DNA from: Mediterranea sp. An20
Lineage (GTDB): Bacteria > Bacteroidota > Bacteroidia > Bacteroidales > Bacteroidaceae
Assembly (NCBI RefSeq): GCF_002160055.1
Contig: NZ_NFJV01000011.1
Span: 1 to 64,000 of the forward strand
Length of the DNA stretch: 64,000 nucleotides
Reading direction: 5' to 3'
Positions 8,144 through 56,659 of this stretch are shown piece after piece. Under the pieces are notes generated by a model. The model made no database searches and was not told where the DNA came from. It was given only the letters and a program-made list of their open reading frames with translations. The position numbers were made by a program, and so were the translations under genes. Each line of letters starts with the position of its first letter. The stretch's first letter is position 1.

Positions 8144-10093
8144 ATGAGTTATCTACGATTTGACAAGACTCTGATGACTAACCTCCAAGAGTCGCTGCCG
8201 CGGGAAATTCTCCGGACGAATAAATCGGGCGCTTATCATTGTACGTCTATTGTGGATTGCAACACACGCAAGTATCATGGCTTGCTGGTGATTCCCGTAC
8301 CCAATCTGGACGATGAGAATCACGTGCTGCTGTCTTCGTTGGACGAGACGGTGATTCAACACGGTGCCGAATTCAATCTGGGCCTGCATTATTATGGCAA
8401 CGGGCACTTCAGCCCCAACGGGCACAAGTACATCCGCGAATTTGACTGCGAGCACATTCCCGCCACCACCTACCGCGTGGGCGGCGTCATTCTGCGCAAA
8501 GAGAAAATCTTTGTCCATCACGAAAACCGTATCCTCATCCGTTACACGCTGGTCGACGCACATTCTGCCACCACGCTCCGCTTCCGCCCCTTCCTGGCGT
8601 TCCGCAGCGTGCGTGAATATACTCATGAGAATGCGCAGGCCAGCCGCGATTATCAATTGGTGGAGAATGGTATCAAGACTTGCATGTATCCCGGCTATCC
8701 CGAACTCTACATGCAGCTGAACAAGAAAAATGAGTTCCATTTCCAGCCCGACTGGTACCGGGGCATCGTCTACACCAAGGAGCAGGAACGCGGGTATGAT
8801 TTCAACGAAGACCTCTACGTGCCCGGTTACTTCGAGGTAGACATCAAGAAGGGCGAAAGCATCGTTTTCTCTGCGGGGGTTTCCGAGGTGTCTACCCGAC
8901 GGCTGAAGCAGACTTTCGAAGCCGAGGTGGCCGACCGTACTCCTCGCGACAGCTTCCTGCACTGCCTTACCAACTCTGCCCACCAGTTCCACAACAAGCA
9001 GGGGGATGAGCACTATGTGTTGGCTGGCTATCCTTGGTTCAAGTGCCGTGCGCGCGACTTGTTTGTTTCCTTGCCGGGACTTACACTGGCCATTGACGAG
9101 CAGGACGAGTTCGAGGATGCCATGAAGACAGCATCGAAAGCTCTCCGGCAGTTTATGGCAGGCGAGCCTTCTACTTACAAGATTTACGAGATGGAGCATC
9201 CCGACGTACTGCTCTGGGCGATATGGACCTTGCAGCAGTATGCCAAATTCACTTCGCGTCAGCGTTGCAGGGAGATGTATGGCGATCTTATGCGCGAAAT
9301 CATGAAGTACCTCTTGAGCCGCAAGCACGACAATCTCTTCCTTCACGACAACGGTCTGCTCTATACCAATGGCACCGACCGTGCCGTGACATGGATGAAC
9401 TCTACGGCCAACGGCCGTCCTGTCATTCCGCGCACGGGATATATTGTCGAAGTCAATGCCTTGTGGTATAACGCTCTCCGCTTCGGGGCTGATATGGCTC
9501 GCGAGAACGGCGATGAAGTAGGAGCTAATACCCTGGAGGCACAGGCTGAGGTGACAGGCAAGTCGTTCGTCGAAGTATTCCGCAACGAATACGGTTATCT
9601 CTTCGACTATGTAGACGGATACATGATGGATTGGAGCGTGCGGCCAAATATGATTTTTGCTGTGGCTCTGGATTATTCTCCGTTGGATAAGACTCAGAAG
9701 AAACAGGTGCTCGACATTGTGACGAAGGAATTGCTTACGCCCAAGGGACTTCGTACCCTCAGCCCCAAGAGCGGCGGGTACAATCCTAACTATGTGGGAC
9801 CGCAGACACAGCGCGACTATGCTTATCACCAGGGTACTGCCTGGCCGTGGCTGTTGGGATTCTATGCGGAGGCTTATTTGCGCGTCTACAAAATGAGCGG
9901 ACTGTCTTTCCTGGAGCGTGCTCTTATCGGTATGGAAGATGAAATGACTTGCCATTGCATCGGCACGCTGCCTGAATTGTTCGACGGTAACCCGCCCTTT
10001 ACGGGGCGCGGCGCGGTGTCTTTCGCTATGAACGTGGCCGAAATACTGCGCGCACTGAGATTATTGTCCAAGTATAACAACAACGCAGAATGA
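8144..10093 (+). CDS. Amylo-alpha-1,6-glucosidase (glycogen debranching enzyme family)
   Basis: This enzyme is predicted to hydrolyse alpha-1,6 branch points of glycogen or maltodextrins. The 649 residues comprise an N-terminal beta-rich domain opening with LPREILRTNKSGAYHCTSIV and a C-terminal alpha/alpha barrel of the GDE_C type, with GYPWFKCRARDLFVSLPGL and GTAWPWLLGFYAEAYLR as the recognisable active-site loops. There is no signal peptide, so it acts in the cytoplasm. It starts a tightly spaced cluster with a GT4 glycosyltransferase (13 bp downstream) and a GH57 enzyme. This three-gene order is familiar from Bacteroides genomes and points to storage-glucan turnover. Confidence 0.9.
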   Translation: MSYLRFDKTLMTNLQESLPREILRTNKSGAYHCTSIVDCNTRKYHGLLVIPVPNLDDENHVLLSSLDETVIQHGAEFNLGLHYYGNGHFSPNGHKYIREFDCEHIPATTYRVGGVILRKEKIFVHHENRILIRYTLVDAHSATTLRFRPFLAFRSVREYTHENAQASRDYQLVENGIKTCMYPGYPELYMQLNKKNEFHFQPDWYRGIVYTKEQERGYDFNEDLYVPGYFEVDIKKGESIVFSAGVSEVSTRRLKQTFEAEVADRTPRDSFLHCLTNSAHQFHNKQGDEHYVLAGYPWFKCRARDLFVSLPGLTLAIDEQDEFEDAMKTASKALRQFMAGEPSTYKIYEMEHPDVLLWAIWTLQQYAKFTSRQRCREMYGDLMREIMKYLLSRKHDNLFLHDNGLLYTNGTDRAVTWMNSTANGRPVIPRTGYIVEVNALWYNALRFGADMARENGDEVGANTLEAQAEVTGKSFVEVFRNEYGYLFDYVDGYMMDWSVRPNMIFAVALDYSPLDKTQKKQVLDIVTKELLTPKGLRTLSPKSGGYNPNYVGPQTQRDYAYHQGTAWPWLLGFYAEAYLRVYKMSGLSFLERALIGMEDEMTCHCIGTLPELFDGNPPFTGRGAVSFAMNVAEILRALRLLSKYNNNAE

Positions 10094-46731: not shown

Positions 46732-47682
46732 TTAAGTGTGTATTTGTAGGTTGGGTGATTGATTTCCGTCCAGCAGCCGGCATACGGCTTCTACTTTGCG
46801 GTCGGTCGGCAGGGAGGCATCTATCCAGTGGATGTGGAAGCCCCGCCGTTCCATGCCGCGGAACCAAGTCATCTGCCGTTTGGCAAACTGGTGGATGGCC
46901 GTCTCCAGCTGGCGTACCATCTCGTTGTAGCTTAGTTGTCCGGTGACGTAGAGAGTCAGGAATTTATACTCCAACCCGTAATACGTCAGGTCTTCAGGCG
47001 CGATGCCTTCGTCCAGCAACTGGCGCACTTCGTCCACCATGCCCTGTTCTAAGCGCTGTTGCAGGCGTCGGCTGATACGGGCGCGGCGTTCTTCGCGGCT
47101 GATGTCCACCCCAATCAGCAGGCTGGTCAGGTGTGGGAAAGGCCGTTCCTCGGCGGGAGCATGGCGATAATATTCTTCTATTTCGATGGCGCGGATGGCA
47201 CGTTTGGGCGTGTCCACATCGGTGGTATTGTGCAGCGTCTTGTAGGTTTTCAGCAACGCGGTCAGCTCTTCCAGCGACTTGCCGGCAAGGGCAGCTCGCA
47301 GAGACGGGTTCTCAGGGACAGGAAGCAGGCGGTAGCCGCTCAGCACCGACTCTAAGTAAAGCCCCGTTCCTCCGCACACGATGGGTGTGTGTCCGCGCCC
47401 CCGTATGTCTTCGTAGGCTTGCAGGAAGTCGCGCTGGTATTCGAACACGTTGTATTTGGTGCCTGGTTCGGCAATATCTATCAGATGGTAGGGCACAGCC
47501 TTGCTATTTACCACGTAGTCGGACAGGTCCTTGCCTGTGCCCAAGTCCATGCGGCGGTACACCTGCCGCGAGTCGGCACTGATGATTTCCGTGTCGAGGG
47601 CAGCAGCTAAGGCGGCGGCCAGTGTGGTTTTTCCCGAAGCGGTAGGCCCTAATATGGCGATTAAATCGTAGGCAGGCATCAT
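46732..47682 (-). CDS. miaA: tRNA dimethylallyltransferase
   Basis: The enzyme adds a dimethylallyl group to A37 of tRNAs reading UNN codons. The P-loop is ILGPTASGKTTLAAALA, followed by the conserved ISADSRQVYRRMDLGTGK, CGGTGLYLESVL and ITKR-type substrate loops (RAIRAIEIEEY), and a C-terminal TWFRG element. I start at 47682 or 47679 (two adjacent ATG codons), because the promoter -7 element lies at 47708-47715 inside the longer open frame. It is co-transcribed with the lipid kinase gene. Confidence 0.95.
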   Translation of the reverse strand: MMPAYDLIAILGPTASGKTTLAAALAAALDTEIISADSRQVYRRMDLGTGKDLSDYVVNSKAVPYHLIDIAEPGTKYNVFEYQRDFLQAYEDIRGRGHTPIVCGGTGLYLESVLSGYRLLPVPENPSLRAALAGKSLEELTALLKTYKTLHNTTDVDTPKRAIRAIEIEEYYRHAPAEERPFPHLTSLLIGVDISREERRARISRRLQQRLEQGMVDEVRQLLDEGIAPEDLTYYGLEYKFLTLYVTGQLSYNEMVRQLETAIHQFAKRQMTWFRGMERRGFHIHWIDASLPTDRKVEAVCRLLDGNQSPNLQIHT

Positions 47683-47707
47683 GTCTGGTTGGTTTATTGT
47701 TTCACGG

Positions 47708-47739
47708 CAAAGATAGCGTAATTTGGGCAGAAACGCAAC
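47708..47739 (-). promoter_or_regulatory. miaA promoter
   Basis: On the minus strand it reads GTTG, a 20-base spacer, then TATCTTTG (47708-47715). Transcription would begin about 20 nt before the miaA start. Confidence 0.6.
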
Positions 47740-47799
47740 GCGTGTTCCTAAAAAAACGTTCCGTCTTGACATCTGTTTCTGTTTTCTGTTCCTTTTCTT

Positions 47800-48282: not shown

Positions 48283-48313
48283 TTTGCAGGTATCGAAAAA
48301 GTCCGTACCTTTG
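48283..48313 (+). promoter_or_regulatory. Promoter of candidate small RNA copy A
   Basis: TTTG (48283-48286), a 19-base spacer and TACCTTTG (48306-48313) give a full consensus match. Confidence 0.8.
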
Positions 48314-48317
48314 CACT

Positions 48318-48379
48318 GTGTTTTTCATGGTATTAGATTTAAGGTTAACAAAGGTTGGGCTCAGCGGAGCCCTTTTTTT
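48318..48379 (+). ncRNA. Candidate small RNA, copy A
   Basis: This unit of about 62 nt has its own consensus promoter and an intrinsic terminator (GGGCTC-AGCG-GAGCCC, 48357-48372, then seven T). The body between them, including CATGGTATTAGATTTAAGG and TTAACAAAGGTTGGG, is conserved in copies B and C. The body contains an ATG followed by only a few codons, so it is not a plausible gene. The 5' end is estimated from the -7 element. Confidence 0.7.
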
Positions 48380-48433
48380 ATGCCCGTACGTTTCCTGTTT
48401 CCGGCGACAAGTAGCCTTTGGGGTCGGAATTGT

Positions 48434-48521
48434 TTATACTTTGGCACTCCATTCCTTATACCTTGGCACCCCATTCCTTATACTTTGGGAGTACGTTTCT
48501 TATACCTTGTCAGTCGGGCCT
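48434..48521 (+). repeat. 22-bp degenerate tandem repeat array, site 6
   Basis: TTATAC recurs at 48434, 48456, 48478 and 48500 in exact 22-bp steps, each followed by (C/T)TTGGnA or CTTGTCA. It lies just downstream of small RNA copy A. Confidence 0.8.
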
Positions 48522-48655
48522 TCTGTAAGAGTGGTTTAGGAGGCTGTAGCATGCAGGGTAACGGAAGAATATCCACCGTTGATGGAAATGGCTGGAATGC
48601 CTGTCTGCTAAGAGAGGTTTTAGTTTCCGTTTCATTTTTGCTCGGCCAGACTCTA

Positions 48656-48830
48656 AGAGCTTGTTTAAATTTTGCTCAGCTTTATTTTGAGTACTGTTTC
48701 CGAGGATATTTTTCCGGTGTACTGAGGAACGTAGCGGGCTACGTGACGAAGTATGCCGGGAAAAGAGACCGGAAAGAGGCTCAAAAGAAGCTGAATATAA
48801 ATCTAAAAGAGGAAAATTTAAACAGGCTCT
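48656..48830. repeat. Inverted-terminal-repeat element, family M1, full copy
   Basis: This 175-bp element is bounded by AGAGCTTGTTTAAATTTT and AAAATTTAAACAGGCTCT (17 of 18 positions match when inverted). A central palindrome GAACGTAGC-GG-GCTACGTGAC lies inside. A related core is found at 58727-58903. It encodes no protein, so if mobile it would depend on enzymes encoded elsewhere. Confidence 0.7.
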
Positions 48831-48927
48831 AAGTAGGGTTAGAGAAAAATTTGTACTGGCTCTAAGCAGCGTGTAAAAGTGTGAAAGAAGTTTTGTATAG
48901 CCTGTAAAATCGGCTTGTTTTCTTAAA

Positions 48928-48945
48928 TTATGTTTTAAAGCATAT
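48928..48945. promoter_or_regulatory. Conserved near-palindrome upstream of small RNA copy B
   Basis: TTATGTTTTAAAGCATAT is the same box and spacing as upstream of copy A. Confidence 0.4.
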
Positions 48946-48961
48946 TTTTCTTCCCAAATAA

Positions 48962-48992
48962 TTTGCAGGTATCAAAAAAGTCCGTACCTTTG
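48962..48992 (+). promoter_or_regulatory. Promoter of candidate small RNA copy B
   Basis: TTTG (48962-48965), a 19-base spacer and TACCTTTG (48985-48992) give a full consensus match. Confidence 0.8.
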
Positions 48993-48996
48993 CACT

Positions 48997-49058
48997 GTGT
49001 TTTTCATGGTATTAGATTTAAGGTTAACAAAGGTTGGGCTCAGCGGAGCCCTTTTTTT
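48997..49058 (+). ncRNA. Candidate small RNA, copy B
   Basis: The transcribed part is identical to copy A, and the terminator hairpin (49036-49051) plus seven T are the same. The identity extends upstream through the promoter and the near-palindrome, and downstream to TGCCCGTACG. This indicates duplication of a unit of about 140 bp. Confidence 0.7.
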
Positions 49059-49176
49059 ATGCCCGTACGCCAACTCCTTTATCAGCGCAGCTTTCCGTTA
49101 GTTAGGGTTTGCCAATCCTTCACTTTCGCACGTTGTTCTTGCTATGTGTGCTTGTGTTGGCAGGTTCCTCTCTTTT

Positions 49177-49797
49177 TTAGAATTTGCAGAAAAACGATAC
49201 GAAGAACGGCACGCTCAGGTCGATGAGCAGTCCGTGGAAGATAGCTACCGGTATCATTTCCTTGCCGGAATGGCGGGTGATGGCAGGAAGCAGTACGTCC
49301 ATCGAATTGACCCCCGCAGCCGAGATGGGAGCTAATTGTCCGAAGTATCTTCGGATGAGCGGTGCGCCGAAAAGGGCGGTCATTTCGCGGAAGATGTTGG
49401 TCAGCAGGGCGATGGTGCCCAGTTCTGTGGCGGCCTGTAAGCCGATAGAGGCTTCTTTGAGCTGGGTGATGAGGATGGACGACAGCGAATAGTAGGCGAA
49501 TCCGCTGCCTACAGCCAGACATTCGGTCACGCTCCAGCGACTCAACAGCAGGGCGGCTGCGGCAGAGAAAACCAGGGTGCCGCACACCGTGGCGGCAGGT
49601 ACCAGCAGCATGCGCAGGTTCAGTGAGCCTAACAGTTGTTTCAGTTCCTTGTTGCTGCCCATGCCCAGCCCGACCTGGAACATGAGGGCATAGAGCACAC
49701 ACAGCGACACTTGGTGTGTGTCGATTTTCACTTCACCCAGCAGGCCTGCCAGGCAGCCTACTGCGAAAAACGCAATGACAATCAGGTTCTGTTTCAT
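49177..49797 (-). CDS. LysO-family lysine exporter, C-terminal half protein
   Basis: This 206-residue membrane protein with about six helices corresponds to the larger, C-terminal part of LysO (YbjE, DUF340). Typical segments are QVGLGMGSNKELKQLLGSLN, GSGFAYYSLSSILITQLKEA, and GVNSMDVLLPAITRHSGKEM with the conserved Asp and His region. Known LysO exports lysine and toxic analogues across the inner membrane. Here the gene is split: the N-terminal part is the preceding small gene, overlapping by 4 bp (ATGA). I start at 49797 (MKQNLIV). Confidence 0.88.
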   Translation of the reverse strand: MKQNLIVIAFFAVGCLAGLLGEVKIDTHQVSLCVLYALMFQVGLGMGSNKELKQLLGSLNLRMLLVPAATVCGTLVFSAAAALLLSRWSVTECLAVGSGFAYYSLSSILITQLKEASIGLQAATELGTIALLTNIFREMTALFGAPLIRRYFGQLAPISAAGVNSMDVLLPAITRHSGKEMIPVAIFHGLLIDLSVPFFVSFFCKF

Positions 49798-50078
49798 TTC
49801 TTTTCCTCCTTTCTGTTCTTGGTATATAGGCGTAGTGCCAGCGAAGCCGCGGCAATGCTGCCTGCCGTGCCGGCTACGGCCAAAAGTGCCGCTTGCCATC
49901 CGAAACGAGCTAAGTTGTCGATAATAAGGTGGTTGGAGCCGATGGACAATCCCAACACAAAGAGCAGCAGGCAGACGGTGAGTGCGGTGCTCTTTTCGAG
50001 TTGACGCACGAAAGATGCGCGGCGCAGCAGGTAGCCCAATATGCCGCCTGCCACTAAGGTCAGTATGATGCTGAACAT
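49794..50078 (-). CDS. LysO-family exporter, N-terminal half protein
   Basis: This 94-residue protein with about three helices (MFSIILTLVAGGILGYLLRR, TALTVCLLLFVLGLSIGSNH) matches the N-terminal part of LysO. Its stop overlaps the start of the C-terminal half gene. The order of the two halves and the clean overlap suggest a normal two-gene version rather than a broken gene. The frame is open upstream to 50174, but the extra 32 residues lie in the leader and do not resemble the family. Confidence 0.82.
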   Translation of the reverse strand: MFSIILTLVAGGILGYLLRRASFVRQLEKSTALTVCLLLFVLGLSIGSNHLIIDNLARFGWQAALLAVAGTAGSIAAASLALRLYTKNRKEEKK

Positions 50079-50370
50079 AATGGTTTCGTTTTTAGGTTGT
50101 GGGTGTAAGGGCAATAAGTCTCTTTCCGGCGGTTTTCGCCGGATGGACAGGAGGGACACCGGAATAGGGGACATGTCATTCTGTCATCCCGGTCATTGTT
50201 CTATGGTGTACCCCCGTCGGAATGGGAAGGAAGACGGGAGGGAGGTCAGATGAAACCGCTGAACCAATGCACGTGCACCAATGCACACCTGCACAGACAA
50301 CCATAGGCGCCTGTGTAGCCGGTAGAGAGATATGTGTACGTGTTCTGTTTCATCTTTGGCGTATTCTTGA
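50079..50370 (-). promoter_or_regulatory. Long structured leader of the lysO pair
   Basis: From a full promoter at 50376-50406 the leader runs about 290 nt to the first lysO gene. It contains GGCGT/ACGCC at its 5' end, a GTGCATTGG direct repeat flanking TGCAC, and a stem TCCGGCG-AAAAC-CGCCGGA at 50125-50143. It also has a 35-codon open frame (50246-50353) with ATG close to the 5' end. I do not recognise the lysine riboswitch core. Confidence 0.5.
50246..50353 (-). CDS. Possible leader peptide in the lysO leader
   Basis: This 35-codon frame begins MKQNTYTYLSTGY about 17 nt after the predicted transcription start. It contains the cysteine-rich word CLCRC and ends HVHWFSGFI. There is no lysine run, so classical lysine attenuation is not indicated. 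The ribosome binding site is not obvious. It may be translated for regulation or may be incidental. Confidence 0.25.
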   Translation of the reverse strand: MKQNTYTYLSTGYTGAYGCLCRCALVHVHWFSGFI

Positions 50371-50375
50371 CGCCG

Positions 50376-50406
50376 CAAAGATACGTAATAATTGTATATT
50401 TGCAAA
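50376..50406 (-). promoter_or_regulatory. Promoter of the lysO pair
   Basis: On the minus strand it reads TTTG (50403-50406), a 19-base spacer, then TATCTTTG (50376-50383), a full consensus match. Confidence 0.75.
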
Positions 50407-50448
50407 ATAAATATTCAATAAATAGGAGTGCCACTCTGTCAGGGCCTG

Positions 50449-51639
50449 TTAGAGCCGGCGGACTTTCCGGCGTATCAGCCACGTGTCGAGCACGGCAGTC
50501 AGCACAAACAGCAGAGCGCCGGTCAGCAGGCAGGGAAGCATCGCGGAGTTTTCCAGTTGCGGGAATATCAGGCGCACACTGTCCATATAGACTGTGCGCA
50601 GTCCTGCTACACAACCGATAGCCGCCAGCAGGCTGACCGCATTCAATCCCGCTGCCAGCAGTTGGTAGGGCAGTGCCACTTGGCTGGGGCTGTACCCCAG
50701 TAGGAGCAGGTTCTCTAACTTGGAGGCGTTTTTCTGCACCAGCAGGAAGATGCTTAGCGAGAGCAGGTAAAACGACAGCAGGCAGATGACGGTGCCCACG
50801 GCCAATACGATGCCTGTGAGCAGACGCAGGAAATAGCCGGCTTTTCCATCGTCCAGCCCATTGCTTTCCGTCTGGTAGTGATGCTGTTCGAAATAAGTGG
50901 CAATGCGGCTGTCGGTCGGGTTCTTTACTTCTACGATGAGGCGGGAGGGATGTGCCTGGCTGCCCGGTGCCAGACGCCGGTTGGCTGCTTCCAGAAAGGC
51001 TTGCGGCACCAGGATGGTGTTCAGGCGGTTGGAGAATCCTACAATATGTCCCCGGTAGGTCTCACTGCGTCCGTTGCCGCGTAAGGTGACGTTCATCCGC
51101 AGGATGCCGGTCAGTCCTTCGGACAGTTTGGGAAGTCCCCGGCTTTGTGCAAATCCGAAGTTGTAGAGGTTGAGGTAGTTGCGCGGGATGATGATGGGCA
51201 AGTCGCCTCCTGCTTCATCGGCATGCCACTGGCTGAGGTCGGTATCGATGAATTCGTCGGGCACCGCTTCGAAGAACATTTCTGTAGACAGATGGATGCC
51301 TGTATTTTCCAGTCCCATGCTGGCTGAAACATCGAACAGGGCAGGGGTGAAGCAGCCGACTTTTTGAGTGAATGCCTGCTTTTGCAGGTCGGATATTTCG
51401 TCTGTGGAGAAAGTGGTACTGTTTCCCAGCAGGTTGCCCAATGTACTGACTTCTTTGGTGGCGATAAGGTAGTCTTTTTTCAGAAAACTGTCACCGCGGG
51501 TAAAGACGGGATGTATGTCGCAATAAGCTTGAATGCCAAGCAGTACAATAGCCATACCCAACAGGTTGGCAAAGAAGAAGCCCGTCAGTTGTCCGGGGCT
51601 GATGTGCTGCCGCAGCAGCTTCCAAACCAGTTTGTTCAT
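50449..51639 (-). CDS. ABC transporter permease (FtsX/MacB-like)
   Basis: This 396-residue protein has one N-terminal helix (LTGFFFANLLGMAIVLLGIQ), a large extracytoplasmic domain of about 220 residues, and three C-terminal helices. These are GIVLAVGTVICLLSFYLLSL, LLAAGLNAVSLLAAIGCVAG and LPCLLTGALLFVLTAVLDTW. This is the topology of FtsX/MacB-type permeases, which act mechanically on envelope proteins or move lipoproteins or peptides. The cognate ATPase is the adjacent gene (13-bp gap). Confidence 0.82.
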   Translation of the reverse strand: MNKLVWKLLRQHISPGQLTGFFFANLLGMAIVLLGIQAYCDIHPVFTRGDSFLKKDYLIATKEVSTLGNLLGNSTTFSTDEISDLQKQAFTQKVGCFTPALFDVSASMGLENTGIHLSTEMFFEAVPDEFIDTDLSQWHADEAGGDLPIIIPRNYLNLYNFGFAQSRGLPKLSEGLTGILRMNVTLRGNGRSETYRGHIVGFSNRLNTILVPQAFLEAANRRLAPGSQAHPSRLIVEVKNPTDSRIATYFEQHHYQTESNGLDDGKAGYFLRLLTGIVLAVGTVICLLSFYLLSLSIFLLVQKNASKLENLLLLGYSPSQVALPYQLLAAGLNAVSLLAAIGCVAGLRTVYMDSVRLIFPQLENSAMLPCLLTGALLFVLTAVLDTWLIRRKVRRL

Positions 51640-51652
51640 CGGGAAAAGGGAA

Positions 51653-52291
51653 TTATAGTTTCAGGATGCGCTGATAGTCCATGGGCAGGCGCCGCCCGAT
51701 GGAAGTGACAATGATGCCGGCGCCTGCGGCTTCTTCTGCCAGCAGGCGTGCCAGGATAGATGCGTTTTCATCGTCTAAGTGGCTCACCGGTTCGTCCAGC
51801 AGGATGAAGTCGGCAGGTTGGCAGAGGCAGCGGATGAAAGCCACCCGCTGCTGTTGTCCGAACGACAGTCGTCCGGCTTTCTCTTCTGCTTTGTCTGCCA
51901 GTCCGGTCGTTTCAAACAGGTGGCGGATTTCTTTCCGGCTGCGTCGGCCTGTCAGCCGGTTCTTCAGCCAGACATTTTCCAGGGCTGTCAGTTCGGGAAA
52001 CAGACGTAGCTCCTGAAACTGCAGGCTGAGCATCCGGCTGCGGCATTCTGTCCATTCGGCGGCAGTCATTGAACGGATGTTCCGTCCGTCGAAGGTAATG
52101 ATGCCTTCATAATCTTTCCGGTATCCGTAGAGGAAGCTGCACAGCGATGATTTGCCCGTGCCGGACGCTGCCTCTATCAGGCAATATTCACCTTTGCGGA
52201 ACGTGAGATCCTTGTGCCACACGTCCGATGAAATGTTGTCCTGTCCTCTGAATACCTGCGGGAGTACCTGCTGTAAACGGATTTCGTTCAT
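51653..52291 (-). CDS. ABC transporter ATP-binding protein
   Basis: This 212-residue ATPase has Walker A in AASGTGKSS (41-49, Ala replacing the first Gly), the signature LSFGQQQRVAFIRCL and Walker B FILLDEPVSHLD. The D-loop has the unusual SHLDDENASIL. The H-loop is altered: where ATPases normally have a histidine after strand 8, the sequence reads GIIVTSIGRRL. I start at 52291 (MNEIRLQQVL). It pairs with the permease downstream and follows the DUF4836 gene by 11 bp. Confidence 0.9.
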   Translation of the reverse strand: MNEIRLQQVLPQVFRGQDNISSDVWHKDLTFRKGEYCLIEAASGTGKSSLCSFLYGYRKDYEGIITFDGRNIRSMTAAEWTECRSRMLSLQFQELRLFPELTALENVWLKNRLTGRRSRKEIRHLFETTGLADKAEEKAGRLSFGQQQRVAFIRCLCQPADFILLDEPVSHLDDENASILARLLAEEAAGAGIIVTSIGRRLPMDYQRILKL

Positions 52292-52302
52292 GGGCGGTTG
52301 GC

Positions 52303-53832
52303 TTATTGTAAGGCGGCCTTGCACAGTTCGGCCAGTTGCTTCAAGGCATTGCTGTTCTGGTCTTTCATTTGCAGGCTTATGAGAGCTGTCTGTCCGTCGC
52401 TTTCGCCTTTCAGGTACGAGATATTGTCGAGGGCGGCAAAGTAGACGGCATTTTTACTTCCTCCGAATCCTGCCAGCATCTTGACAATGGGCAACTGGCA
52501 GATTGCTTCCACATTGAGCACACAAGAGGCTTTCTTGCCTTTCATCTCCGAGGCAAAGGAGGTCTTGGCTGCCGAAGGGTCGCACTTTTTCAGGATGTCT
52601 TTGTAGAGTGTTTCGTCGTTGGTGGCATAGAAATTGCCGTCGCGCACGCCGAAGAACAGGTTGAACTGGCGGGTGCGAAGCACGTACTGGTCAGCTTCCA
52701 GTTCCACGATGCTGCTGCCACGGCCCAGTTGTTTTTTCAGGAATGCATTGTCGGCCAGCTCCTTCAGCGGAGAGGCATCATTCACGGAAGCATAGGCGAG
52801 CAGCGAGGGTAGACGGTTCAGGGTCAGGTTCACCAGTCCTAAGGTGAAGTCGTCCTGGAACATGCCGAACAGTCTCTTGATGTACTCTGCATCTTTGGCA
52901 GAGAGTTCTTCGCCCAGCGACGTATTCGCCATCAGTATGTCATAAGAGGCGGAGCCGTCCATGCCGCTGCTTATCAGGAAGAGAGTCGATTGGGGGAAAT
53001 AGTCTATATATGTGTTCTTGATGGGGCGTGCTGCCTGTGCCTGCTTTTCCATGAGTGCTTTGGCTTCTTCGTTGTCCGTATAGGGAGTTGCGGACAAGTC
53101 GATGCGTCCTTTCTCAAAAGAAAGTCCCGCAGTGATTTGCAGGTCTTTCAGGAAGTCTTTGTTCTTGAGCATCGGATTTCCCATGAATTTTTGGTACTCG
53201 GCCAACAGTCCGCCATACGGGTACAGGAGTTTGATGTCTCCTTTCTGCGCCTGCATCTGTATGAACTCCGGCGCCTGGCTGAAGCTTTGCTCCGCACCCT
53301 GGCTCATCCATGCCTGCAGACTGTCTTGCAGGGCAGGCGTGGGCTGCTGCCCCAGTACAAACAGGGTGGAGGCATTGTAGGCCATGGTCAGTTTACCTTC
53401 GGCCAGCGTGTAGCCTTCGGCTTCGCCGGATTGGGAGATGATGCCTTCTTTTTGCAGGTTACCGACCAAGTTTTCCACGCTGTTCTTGTCTGCTACCCGC
53501 GCCACCAAAGCACCTTGCGGCAGGGTCTTGCTGGTAAACAGATAAAGGGGCGACTCCAAGTCAATGCCTGCCTTGCCAGGATTGTCCAGCAGTTGCTCGG
53601 CATATTCGTAGGTGGCGGCATCCATCTCTTTCTTCAGGGCATCTTTCAGGTTTTGCAGCAGGGCTTGGTTCTCTTTATCACCCGCTCCGGCTTTCTCGGC
53701 CAGTGTAGCAGGTTGGAGGGCGACAAGTGCTTCTATGTCTGCCGGGAGCGAGTTCGTGTATTCGCTTTTTTGTGTACAGGCACCGGTTATCAGCAGCAGG
53801 GCGGCCAGTGCGGGAAACAACATCTTTTTCAT
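52303..53832 (-). CDS. DUF4836-family lipoprotein
   Basis: This 509-residue lipoprotein has its signal ending at Cys19 (LLLITGACTQK). The mature protein carries the DUF4836 features SLPADIEALVALQPATLAEK, YIDYFPQSTLFLISSGMDGS and KKASCVLNVEAICQLPIVKM. The family is restricted to Bacteroidetes and has no known role. Because it is sandwiched between rsmE and an FtsX-type ABC pair, it may be a client or partner of that transporter. Confidence 0.82.
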   Translation of the reverse strand: MKKMLFPALAALLLITGACTQKSEYTNSLPADIEALVALQPATLAEKAGAGDKENQALLQNLKDALKKEMDAATYEYAEQLLDNPGKAGIDLESPLYLFTSKTLPQGALVARVADKNSVENLVGNLQKEGIISQSGEAEGYTLAEGKLTMAYNASTLFVLGQQPTPALQDSLQAWMSQGAEQSFSQAPEFIQMQAQKGDIKLLYPYGGLLAEYQKFMGNPMLKNKDFLKDLQITAGLSFEKGRIDLSATPYTDNEEAKALMEKQAQAARPIKNTYIDYFPQSTLFLISSGMDGSASYDILMANTSLGEELSAKDAEYIKRLFGMFQDDFTLGLVNLTLNRLPSLLAYASVNDASPLKELADNAFLKKQLGRGSSIVELEADQYVLRTRQFNLFFGVRDGNFYATNDETLYKDILKKCDPSAAKTSFASEMKGKKASCVLNVEAICQLPIVKMLAGFGGSKNAVYFAALDNISYLKGESDGQTALISLQMKDQNSNALKQLAELCKAALQ

Positions 53833-53845
53833 ATCTGTAGTCTAT

Positions 53846-54544
53846 TTATTGGTTTTGCAAATTCAGGATGTGGCACGCCACCAAGGCAGCCGTTTCCGTA
53901 CGCAGGCGCGACTTTCCCAAGCTGACCGGAATAAAACCTGCCTTCAGGGCCAGTTGCACTTCTTCTTCGCTGAAGTCTCCTTCCGGACCGATAAGCACCA
54001 GGGCATCTTCACCTTTGCGTACCCGGTCTATCAGCAGCGGTTTTTCTCCCTCATGGCAGTGGGCGATGAATTTTTGCCCGTTAAACGGTTGCGCAATGAA
54101 GTCTTTGAAATCTGTCATTTCGTTTAGCTTGGGCAGGCGTGCCTTCAGCGATTGTTTGATGGCCGATACCAGGATTTTCTGGATGCGGTCGGTCTTGATG
54201 ACTTTCCGTTCCGAATAGCGGCAGTTGAGGAAAGTCAGTTCGTCCATGCCTATTTCGGTGGCTTTCTCGGCAAACCATTCCGTGCGGTCCATGTTTTTGG
54301 TGGGAGCCATGGCTATGTGCAGGTGCCCTGTCCACAGCGGTTCCTGCAGCTCAGCTTCCAGTATATCCACCAGGCAGCGTTTGTGTGCCACCAGGGCGAT
54401 GCGTGCCTGGTAGAAATGGCCGGTACCGTCAGTCAGAGTCACTGGGTCACCCGGCTGCAGGCGCAACACGCGTAGGGCGTGTGCTGCTTCTTCCGCGGGT
54501 AGTTCGTTGCTTGTCTGTATGTCTGGCGTATAAAATATGTGCAT
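53846..54544 (-). CDS. rsmE: 16S rRNA (uracil(1498)-N(3))-methyltransferase
   Basis: This 232-residue SPOUT methyltransferase modifies U1498 in the decoding region of 16S rRNA. The N-terminal PUA-like domain includes EEAAHALRVLRLQPGDPVTL. The C-terminal trefoil knot has LIGPEGDFSEEEVQLAL and VSLGKSRLRTETAALVA, which bind S-adenosylmethionine. Length and motifs are normal. It lies within a six-gene operon, 19 bp after the bifunctional nuclease gene. Confidence 0.95.
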   Translation of the reverse strand: MHIFYTPDIQTSNELPAEEAAHALRVLRLQPGDPVTLTDGTGHFYQARIALVAHKRCLVDILEAELQEPLWTGHLHIAMAPTKNMDRTEWFAEKATEIGMDELTFLNCRYSERKVIKTDRIQKILVSAIKQSLKARLPKLNEMTDFKDFIAQPFNGQKFIAHCHEGEKPLLIDRVRKGEDALVLIGPEGDFSEEEVQLALKAGFIPVSLGKSRLRTETAALVACHILNLQNQ

Positions 54545-54563
54545 AGTGGTGAATGGTTGGTAG

Positions 54564-55130
54564 TTAAGATGCTTTTAGCTGGTTAATCTGGTCGCGCAGG
54601 TGGGCTGCCTGTTCATAGTCTTCTGTCTCGATGGCTTTTTGCAGAGCTTCCTTCAACGAATGCAGCGACTTCTTTTTGGCATTTTCTTCTATTTTTTCCT
54701 GCGGCAGTTCGTCGAAGTTCGGCTGGATGCATGCCGCATCCAGCACATCCTCATAGATGAATATGGAGACGCCCATCCGCAGGGCCAAGGCTATGGCATC
54801 ACTGGTGCGGGAGTCTATCCGTAGAATCATTTCGCCTGAGCGCAGGTAGAGGTAAGCATAGAAAACGCCTTCTTCCACTTTGTAGATGAGCACGCGCAAT
54901 AGTTTGACACCCAATGCTTCGAGTACGGATGCAAACAGCTCGTGGGTCAGCGGCCGGGGTGGAGTCATGCCTTTCAGTTCAAGCGCAATGGCCTGTGCTT
55001 CCGAGTTGCCGATGATGATGGGCAGGGTACGCTCACCATCTGTTTCGTTTAGAATCAGTGCGTATGCACCTGCTTGGGCGCGGCTGCTGACGAGGCTTGA
55101 TACCTGTAGTTCTATTTTTTTTCTATTCAT
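54564..55130 (-). CDS. Bifunctional nuclease-family protein (DUF151) with UvrB/UvrC motif
   Basis: This 188-residue protein has a DUF151 domain at about 10-130 (YALILNETDGERTLPIIIGN, then RIDSRTSDAIALALRMGVSI) and a C-terminal UvrB/UvrC helical hairpin at about 150-188 (LKEALQKAIETEDYEQAAHL). The family was named for DNase/RNase activity in a plant homologue; the bacterial role is not settled. I start at 55130 (MNRKKIELQV), which overlaps the end of the nucleoside transporter gene by 8 bp, so the genes are translationally linked. Confidence 0.88.
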   Translation of the reverse strand: MNRKKIELQVSSLVSSRAQAGAYALILNETDGERTLPIIIGNSEAQAIALELKGMTPPRPLTHELFASVLEALGVKLLRVLIYKVEEGVFYAYLYLRSGEMILRIDSRTSDAIALALRMGVSIFIYEDVLDAACIQPNFDELPQEKIEENAKKKSLHSLKEALQKAIETEDYEQAAHLRDQINQLKAS

Positions 55131-56385
55131 GGTCTCCTTTCGTTTTTTCCGGTGTATGTTTGTATCGGAACACTCCTGCAAACAATATGCCAATTATCAA
55201 GGCGTATGCTGCAAATATCATCCAGATGGGAGTCCATTCGCGGCTCACCAGTCCGCCACCTTCGGCGTAGACAGAGAACATGTCTACCACCGCGCCGCTG
55301 GCATAGCCTCCCACAAAGGCTCCGACACCATTGGTCATCATGAAGAAAAGTCCCTGGGCGCTGGCGCGGATACCGGCATGGGCTTCCATTTCCGTGTAGA
55401 GCGAACCGGATACGTTGAAGAAGTCGAAAGCCATGCCGTAGACAATCATCGACAGAATGAGCATCCATAGTCCGTCGCCCGGATTACCCAGCCCGAACAG
55501 ACCGAAGCGCAGCACCCAGGCAAACATGCTGATGAGCATGACACGTTTGATGCCGAAGTGTTTCAGGAAAAACGGAATGGCTAGGATAAACAGTGTTTCG
55601 CTCATTTGGGAGATGGAGAGCAGGATGACAGAGTGCTTGACGCCGAAGGAATCGGCATATTCCGGAATGGAAGCGAAAGAACTTAGGAAAAGGTCGCCGT
55701 AGGTGTTGGTGATTTGCAACGCGGCGCCCAGCAGCATGGAAAAGAGGAAGAAGATTGCCATCTTTTTTTGCTTGAACAGCACCAAGGCATCCAGCCCGAA
55801 AGCCGAAAGCCACGTCTTCTTCTCGCTCCGTTCCGGTGGACAGGGGGGCAGCGTGAAGGCATACAGCCCCAGCACCAAGGCAGCCGTAGCGGCTACGTAC
55901 AGTTGTGAGGCGCTGTGCTTGAATCCGGTAAGGTCTACCACCCACATGGCGCAGATGAAGCCCACCGTTCCCCATACGCGGATGGGGGGGAAGTCTTTTA
56001 CCAAGTCCATCCGGTATTTCTCCAAGGCGTTGTAAGATACAGTATTGGCGAGCGACAAGGTGGGCATATAAGCCAGCATGTTGAGCAGCATGGCTATGTA
56101 CATTTGTTGGTAGGTGGTGGCGGTAGAGGCATAGAACAAGGCTCCTGCTCCGACGAGGTGCAGCAATCCGTACAGGCGTTCGGCGTTTACCCATTTGTCG
56201 GCTATGATGCCTGTCAGTCCGGGCATGAAAAGGGCTGCTATGCCCATAGTGGCAAAAATGGCGCCAATCTGTCCACCTTCAAAGTGCAAGGTGCTGCCCA
56301 TATAGCCGCCCAGCGAAATGAGCCATGCGCCCCATGTGAAGAATTGCAGGAACTGCATGGCCGTAAGTCTTGTCTTTATATTCAT
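55123..56385 (-). CDS. NupG-family nucleoside:H+ symporter
   Basis: This 420-residue major facilitator superfamily transporter has twelve hydrophobic helices. The start MNIKTRLTAMQFLQFFTWGA, the ALFMPGLTGIIADKWVNAER loop and the C-terminal RASAQGLFFMMTNGVGAFVG are typical of nucleoside permeases related to NupG and XapB. It is the first gene of the long minus-strand operon ending at the ABC permease. A promoter lies about 95 bp upstream. Confidence 0.9.
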   Translation of the reverse strand: MNIKTRLTAMQFLQFFTWGAWLISLGGYMGSTLHFEGGQIGAIFATMGIAALFMPGLTGIIADKWVNAERLYGLLHLVGAGALFYASTATTYQQMYIAMLLNMLAYMPTLSLANTVSYNALEKYRMDLVKDFPPIRVWGTVGFICAMWVVDLTGFKHSASQLYVAATAALVLGLYAFTLPPCPPERSEKKTWLSAFGLDALVLFKQKKMAIFFLFSMLLGAALQITNTYGDLFLSSFASIPEYADSFGVKHSVILLSISQMSETLFILAIPFFLKHFGIKRVMLISMFAWVLRFGLFGLGNPGDGLWMLILSMIVYGMAFDFFNVSGSLYTEMEAHAGIRASAQGLFFMMTNGVGAFVGGYASGAVVDMFSVYAEGGGLVSREWTPIWMIFAAYALIIGILFAGVFRYKHTPEKTKGDHE

Positions 56386-56479
56386 ATAGGTATGTTTTTA
56401 ATGGATAAGCCAACCGGCCCTAATTTAGTTTCGTTAAACATATAGTTACAGAGGCACGGAGTGTATCTGCTCTATGATG

Positions 56480-56511
56480 CAAATGTACGATGTTAGTGCA
56501 AGAAAAACAAG
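56480..56511 (-). promoter_or_regulatory. Promoter of the nucleoside transporter operon
   Basis: On the minus strand it reads CTTG, a 20-base spacer, then TACATTTG (56480-56487). The leader would be about 88 nt. Confidence 0.6.
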
Positions 56512-56554
56512 AGAGCGGGCAAAAAACGGATAAAAAACGGAGAAAGGGGTATAT

Positions 56555-56624
56555 AAAAAAAGAAGGGTATCTATCCCAGACACCCAATCTTTGTTAACCT
56601 TAAATCTAATACCATGAAAAACAC
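56555..56624 (-). ncRNA. Candidate small RNA, copy C
   Basis: On the minus strand the body repeats that of copies A and B (CATGGTATTAGATTTAAGG, then TTAACAAAGATTGGG). The terminator stem is a different sequence, GGGTGTCT paired with AGATACCC (56565-56585), followed by TTCTTTTTTT. The promoter is ATTG, a 19-base spacer and TACCTTTG (56629-56636). Pairing kept despite sequence change supports a functional RNA end. Confidence 0.68.
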
Positions 56625-56628
56625 AGTG

Positions 56629-56659
56629 CAAAGGTAAGGCTTTTCTGTTACGCTGCAAT
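56629..56659 (-). promoter_or_regulatory. Promoter of candidate small RNA copy C
   Basis: Minus-strand ATTG (56656-56659), 19 bases, then TACCTTTG (56629-56636). The -7 element is perfect and the -33 has three of four bases. Confidence 0.7.

Follow-up and report, generated by a model that had tools for sequence, protein, structure and literature searches.

A 64,000-nt stretch of Mediterranea sp. An20 DNA, referred to here as the window, carries the same short unit three times, twice on the forward strand and once on the reverse strand, which raises the question of what the unit encodes and how it might act in this bacterium. Re-reading of the sequence returned all three copies at the positions and on the strands given in the initial annotation, which had taken them for a multi-copy small RNA (sRNA) family with a constant, seed-like 5′ region and had left open whether that family was catalogued. 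Rfam covariance search answered both points: copies A, B and C match RF04319 (BTncRNA_FopS) along the full model, all above the gathering score of 56 bits, so that the family is already catalogued, and its members are described as "paralogous sRNAs" in PMC11697453. Taken as a whole, the best explanation, to which we assign a probability of about 0.93, is that the three units are FopS sRNA genes, whose mechanism has been published for Bacteroides thetaiotaomicron.

In that species, FopS transcripts are annotated, and FopS uses its 5′ end to base-pair with SusC-like transporter mRNAs at their start regions, which blocks translation; the RRM protein RbpB binds FopS and counteracts the repression (PMC11697453). 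FopS thereby serves gut Bacteroides in switching off sugar importers; according to the same source, the classical sRNA chaperones are absent from these bacteria.

Three FopS genes in the window

The features of the three copies are as follows.

48283–48313, + strand: promoter of copy A (−33 TTTG at 48283–48286, 19 nt, TAccTTTG at 48306–48313)
48318–48382, + strand: FopS copy A (RF04319, 72 bits, E 1.4e-8)
48318–48353, + strand: 36-nt 5′ region of copy A, used as the seed in the pairing test
48357–48379, + strand: terminator hairpin of copy A, GGGCTC/GAGCCC, with T run (by folding)
48962–48992, + strand: promoter of copy B (TTTG at 48962–48965, 19 nt, TAccTTTG at 48985–48992)
48997–49061, + strand: FopS copy B (RF04319, 72 bits, E 1.4e-8), apparent local duplicate of A by the A/B identity profile
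56552–56624, − strand: FopS copy C (RF04319, 79.1 bits, E 6e-10)
56565–56585, − strand: terminator hairpin of copy C, GGGTGTCTG/TAGATACCC (by folding)
56629–56659, − strand: promoter of copy C (ATTG at 56659–56656, TAccTTTG at 56636–56629)

The starts of the copies (48318, 48997 and 56624) are those of the Rfam model, not mapped transcription starts. Each copy had been described as following a TAnnTTTG promoter with 19-base spacing; this Bacteroides-type promoter is complete in A and B, but C, which has TAccTTTG, reads ATTG rather than TTTG at −33. The description of a terminal hairpin and T run, with altered stem sequence and preserved pairing, agreed with folding: both GGGCTC/GAGCCC (A and B) and GGGTGTCT/AGATACCC (C, with one G–U pair) form stems, followed by the T run. 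Folding energies of the whole RNAs are ordinary (z −0.52 and −0.93), and the minimum-energy fold of copy A contains a weak 5′ helix that shrinks to two pairs in the centroid and has no counterpart in copy C. The copies in the window thus have the layout of RF04319, a conserved, single-stranded 5′ stretch and then an intrinsic terminator.

Ungapped identity between A and B is high only from about −80 to +80, and the two copies look like a local duplication; A and C have the −10 region and the 5′ region in common and little else. On one side of A and B lies an IPP transferase gene (46732–47772, PF01715) and on the other further genes. Two other sequences lie between A and B: short imperfect tandem units resembling CATTCCTTATACCTTGG (48440–48515) and a stretch of about 190 bases (48640–48835) with near-inverted ends, GAGCTTGTTTAAATTTT ... 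AAAATTTAAACAGGCTC. The latter may be a small dispersed element, because a 22-base piece of it is found again in two other loci of the genome (L146 and L168).

The genome (G000; 3.84 Mb in 88 contigs, a 96% complete draft) contains seven RF04319 matches in total, five of them above the cut-off. The four outside the window are listed below; the seeds of the last two have diverged (edit distances of 6 and 8, respectively).

C13:38550, + strand: RF04319 match above the cut-off
C67:72330, − strand: RF04319 match above the cut-off
C1:248478, + strand: RF04319 match below the cut-off
C56:111652, + strand: RF04319 match below the cut-off

The family described in B. thetaiotaomicron (FopS-01 to FopS-14) agrees with these genes in sequence and hairpin model, in promoter type, in multi-copy organization, in its seed-like 5′ end and in predicted susC pairing; here, by contrast, there are seven copies rather than 14, as genome size predicts, two of these are diverged, and no RRM_1 protein was found. 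The related sRNA GibS has its R1 seed sequence in common with FopS, but is set apart by a second seed, R2, and a PM2 promoter motif, as described in PMC11697453.

An exact search with a 28-nt core in a named genome collection returned 114 matches in 113 stretches, whose titles name Bacteroides, Mediterranea, Prevotella and relatives, Barnesiella, Muribaculaceae, Porphyromonas and Paludibacter; one match lies in a Lachnoclostridium MAG that we regard as mislabelled or contaminated. Some of the named FopS loci also match the window over longer stretches of DNA, for example those of Bacteroides sp. ET71 (88% over 1,580 bases) and of candidate species such as B. merdipullorum and B. intestinipullorum. 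Copy C lies upstream of a nucleoside H+ symporter gene on the same strand (55123–56385, PF03825), and at 11 of the 16 named FopS loci with a relative of this gene, core and gene share a strand and are no more than 500 nt apart. The place of copy C beside the symporter gene (55123–56624) is thus kept, and an effect on that gene is a possibility.

FopS in genomes without a detected RRM protein

The published antagonist of FopS is an RRM protein, and the RRM_1 profile (PF00076) gave no match in the 96% complete draft of this genome, with Bacteroides ihuae matched as a positive control. An eight-sequence RRM profile of our own (A1) gave one noise-level match here (14.6 bits, E 0.0998, in a 132-aa frame). 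Searched at E ≤ 1 against 119 Bacteroides genomes, this genome included as a member of the same genus group, A1 matched in 78, with 68 strong matches (all below 1e-30) and ten weak ones (8.4e-5 to 0.295), eight of which, all except those of G023 and G053, were inspected. Pfam identifies five of the proteins (L243, L244, L246, L247 and L249) as DbpA-domain DEAD helicases, and these were rejected; a sixth (L248) reads, by its sequence and without Pfam, as a DbpA-type DEAD helicase. The weak match in G077 is, by sequence, the end of a genuine RRM protein, truncated where the contig stops. An RRM protein was thereby counted in 69 of the 119 genomes (the 68 strong matches and G077) and in 50 none was found; the count covers RRM_1 proteins in general, with RbpA, RbpB and RbpC pooled, and the absences are those of draft genomes, many of them incomplete. 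Among the 70 genomes at least 90% complete and with at most 5% contamination, 53 had a strong match, four a weak one (three helicases and this genome) and 13 none. PF00076 and A1 agreed in the 25 genomes of the genus that were in both samples, with the same 11 positive.

FopS was found above the cut-off in all 119 Bacteroides genomes; in 16 genomes of other families, FopS was present in five (E ≤ 0.001) and RRM in nine. The strongest single case is G111, rated 100% complete in about ten contigs, with 11 FopS copies and no A1 match. The number of FopS copies follows genome size (Spearman 0.86, 70 genomes): the mean was 6.4 in the 17 RRM-less genomes (mean 3.21 Mb) against 11.2 in the 53 RRM-bearing ones (4.81 Mb), and the lower number in this genome therefore needs no special cause.

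Because the core search demanded an exact core, conservation of the core within the 114 matches is uninformative. A freer comparison took 20 copies, picked by hand among the listed matches, from each of the two kinds of genome: mean pairwise identity of the 5′ region was 0.893 in RRM-less and 0.850 in RRM-bearing genomes, and that of the hairpin and tail 0.44 and 0.45, respectively. As FopS is present in 119 of 119 genomes and RRM in 69, and as the 5′ region is equally conserved in RRM-less genomes, FopS seems, on this comparative evidence, to be independent of RbpB. That FopS persists, 5′ region included, in genomes lacking a detected RRM protein also argues against the binding and titration of RbpB, instead of mRNA pairing, as its main role; the binding of FopS by RbpB in B. 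thetaiotaomicron (PMC11697453) would fit that role, which we regard as improbable, though it is the best placed of the alternatives.

The history of the RRM proteins was followed on a tree of one RNA methyltransferase (53846–54544 in the window, PF04452), which covers 116 of the 119 genomes, three having no match and the row for G072 being partial. With G077 scored as RRM-less, the RRM label requires eight changes (7–9 in bootstrap; the well-supported branches alone force three); with G077 corrected, it requires seven, falling to five for the genomes at least 90% complete (71 rows) and to four if the partial row of G072 is also omitted. The genome studied here belongs to a group of ten, all without RRM (support 99/86).

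Predicted pairing with susC start regions

The initial annotation had proposed target prediction for the conserved 5′ part, and the predicted duplexes were indeed stronger at susC starts than at other starts. A genome-wide search for the complement of 23 nt of the seed, allowing up to three mismatches, returned no start region; its four matches were FopS genes, and pairing was therefore scored by duplex energy, with the 36-nt 5′ region as the query. SusC proteins were identified with TIGR04056 (50 matches in the genome, 20 above the cut-off), and starts were assigned by a 5′-most-ATG rule, which left 17 for scoring after L140, L142 and L144, without an upstream ATG, were dropped. These 17 starts had a mean of −15.85 kcal/mol against −11.81 kcal/mol for 249 other ORF starts (p 9e-6), the latter drawn from about 0.46 Mb of the genome by a crude longest-ORF rule, false ORFs and starts included. 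The 106 A/T-rich starts among these others had a mean of −11.72 kcal/mol (susC versus these, p 1.4e-5), and regions 200–250 nt upstream of susC genes reached −10.55 kcal/mol.

Shuffled seeds were as low as the real one in 0 of 200 cases in each set, including 60 sampled non-SusC starts; because the non-SusC starts also gave 0 of 200, the pairing is in part a general property of AUG-AAA starts. Mean energies at susC starts were similarly low in RRM-less G111 (−15.49 kcal/mol; 29 of 30 loci scored, 34 matches above the cut-off) and RRM-bearing G021 (−16.43 kcal/mol; 30 of 30 loci scored, 56 matches listed). Neither half of the seed distinguished susC from other starts as well as the full 36 nt did: for this genome, G111 and G021, the 5′ half gave p values of 0.014, 0.27 and 0.016, and the 3′ half 0.013, 0.00022 and 0.0013. 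Within the window, the best-scoring start belongs to a candidate target gene.

8144–10093, + strand: glycogen debranching enzyme gene (PF12439, PF06202), predicted duplex at its start of −19.7 kcal/mol

A seed resembling the antisense of susC start regions would also be expected of cis-antisense RNAs of the DonS type, which repress susC homologues (PMC7366714) and are encoded opposite their own susC. The copies in the window are not so placed: there is no TIGR04056 match within the window, none of the SusC matches of the genome adjoins any of the other four copies, and 0 of the 114 core matches face an ORF of at least 150 aa running from the complementary ATG. The longest ORF facing a core match has 118 aa, and one at L015 is still open at 113 aa where the locus ends. 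Action on an adjoining susC in the DonS manner is accordingly most improbable.

Conservation confined to promoter and transcript

Across the 114 matches, TAnnTTTG lies upstream of 113. In the exception, L110 from Prevotella, promoter and seed are partly duplicated in tandem, with two consecutive seed starts, and an incomplete copy of the seed separates TAnnTTTG from the match. A TTTG precedes TAnnTTTG at 19 nt in 24 cases and at 20 nt in another 24; with 48 of 113 at either distance, the −33 TTTG is poorly kept in the family. A foldable hairpin is present in 113 of 114 matches, that of L071 being masked by N. Grouped by their paired letters, the stems are of 24 types; GGGCTC/GAGCCC accounts for 27, some of which contain a bulged A, and GGAGTAC/GTACTCC for 11. 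Information is high from the −10 TA to the T run, with 1.7–1.9 bits at TA and TTTG, and is near 0 downstream of the T run; upstream there are only moderate A/T tracts. These occupy columns −81 to −77, −59 to −57 and −49 to −46 before the core and may represent an upstream element of the promoter or a site for a regulator.

If the unit were a passive, MITE-like dispersed repeat that acquired its promoter and hairpin by chance, its multiple copies and the local duplication of A and B would be accounted for, and conservation would be expected to extend equally through the flanks. Instead, conservation falls to background outside the promoter and transcript and pairing is kept while hairpin sequences vary, which is why we do not read the unit as a passive repeat. 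No common boundary or target duplication was seen outside the transcript in the 114 matches, the place of copy C beside the symporter gene is retained as described above, and the unit belongs to an Rfam family with transcripts annotated in B. thetaiotaomicron (PMC11697453); we give the passive repeat next to no weight. Equally little is given to a leader-peptide or small-ORF gene (ATGGTATTAGATTTAAGG..., MVLDLRLTK), for which an open ATG frame runs in the core of A, B and C, since four of the seven copies in this genome have CATAG rather than CATGG and so lose the ATG, the frame ends within the hairpin in C and passes through it in A, and sORFs were excluded at 14 B. thetaiotaomicron loci (PMC11697453).

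A model for FopS without RbpB

For the FopS genes of this genome, we propose that each copy would be transcribed from its own Bacteroides-type promoter into an RNA of 65–73 nt, consisting of a mostly unstructured 5′ seed and an intrinsic terminator. The seed, roughly complementary to an A/U-rich leader and the AUGAAA that follows it, would pair with the start regions of susC-like mRNAs and block their translation, as the predicted duplexes suggest for this genome; glycogen mRNAs may be paired and blocked likewise. As the seed is kept where no RbpB-type RRM protein was found, repression by pairing is probably the conserved core of the system, and RbpB would be a lineage-specific modulator of it. 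A growth defect on raffinose-type sugars once ascribed to loss of rbpB was due to a gene duplication (PMC11501099).

We lean, by a small measure, towards FopS as a genus-wide, RbpB-independent regulator of Bacteroides: RRM proteins would have been gained or lost several times, with FopS and its seed retained throughout, either with no partner needed or with another RNA-binding protein as a substitute. In the literature passages covered, those of PMC11697453 among them, we found no statement on FopS without RbpB.

The family itself is known, and what is added here is the persistence of FopS where its described antagonist was not found. The separation of FopS from RRM matters because the prevalence of a joint FopS–RbpB circuit in a substantial fraction of the members of the mammalian gut microbiota has been inferred from the conservation of both (PMC11697453). 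Genomes with FopS and without a detected RRM protein would offer a natural test of how FopS acts by itself and of whether any protein, and if so which, assists sRNAs in bacteria described as lacking the classical chaperones.
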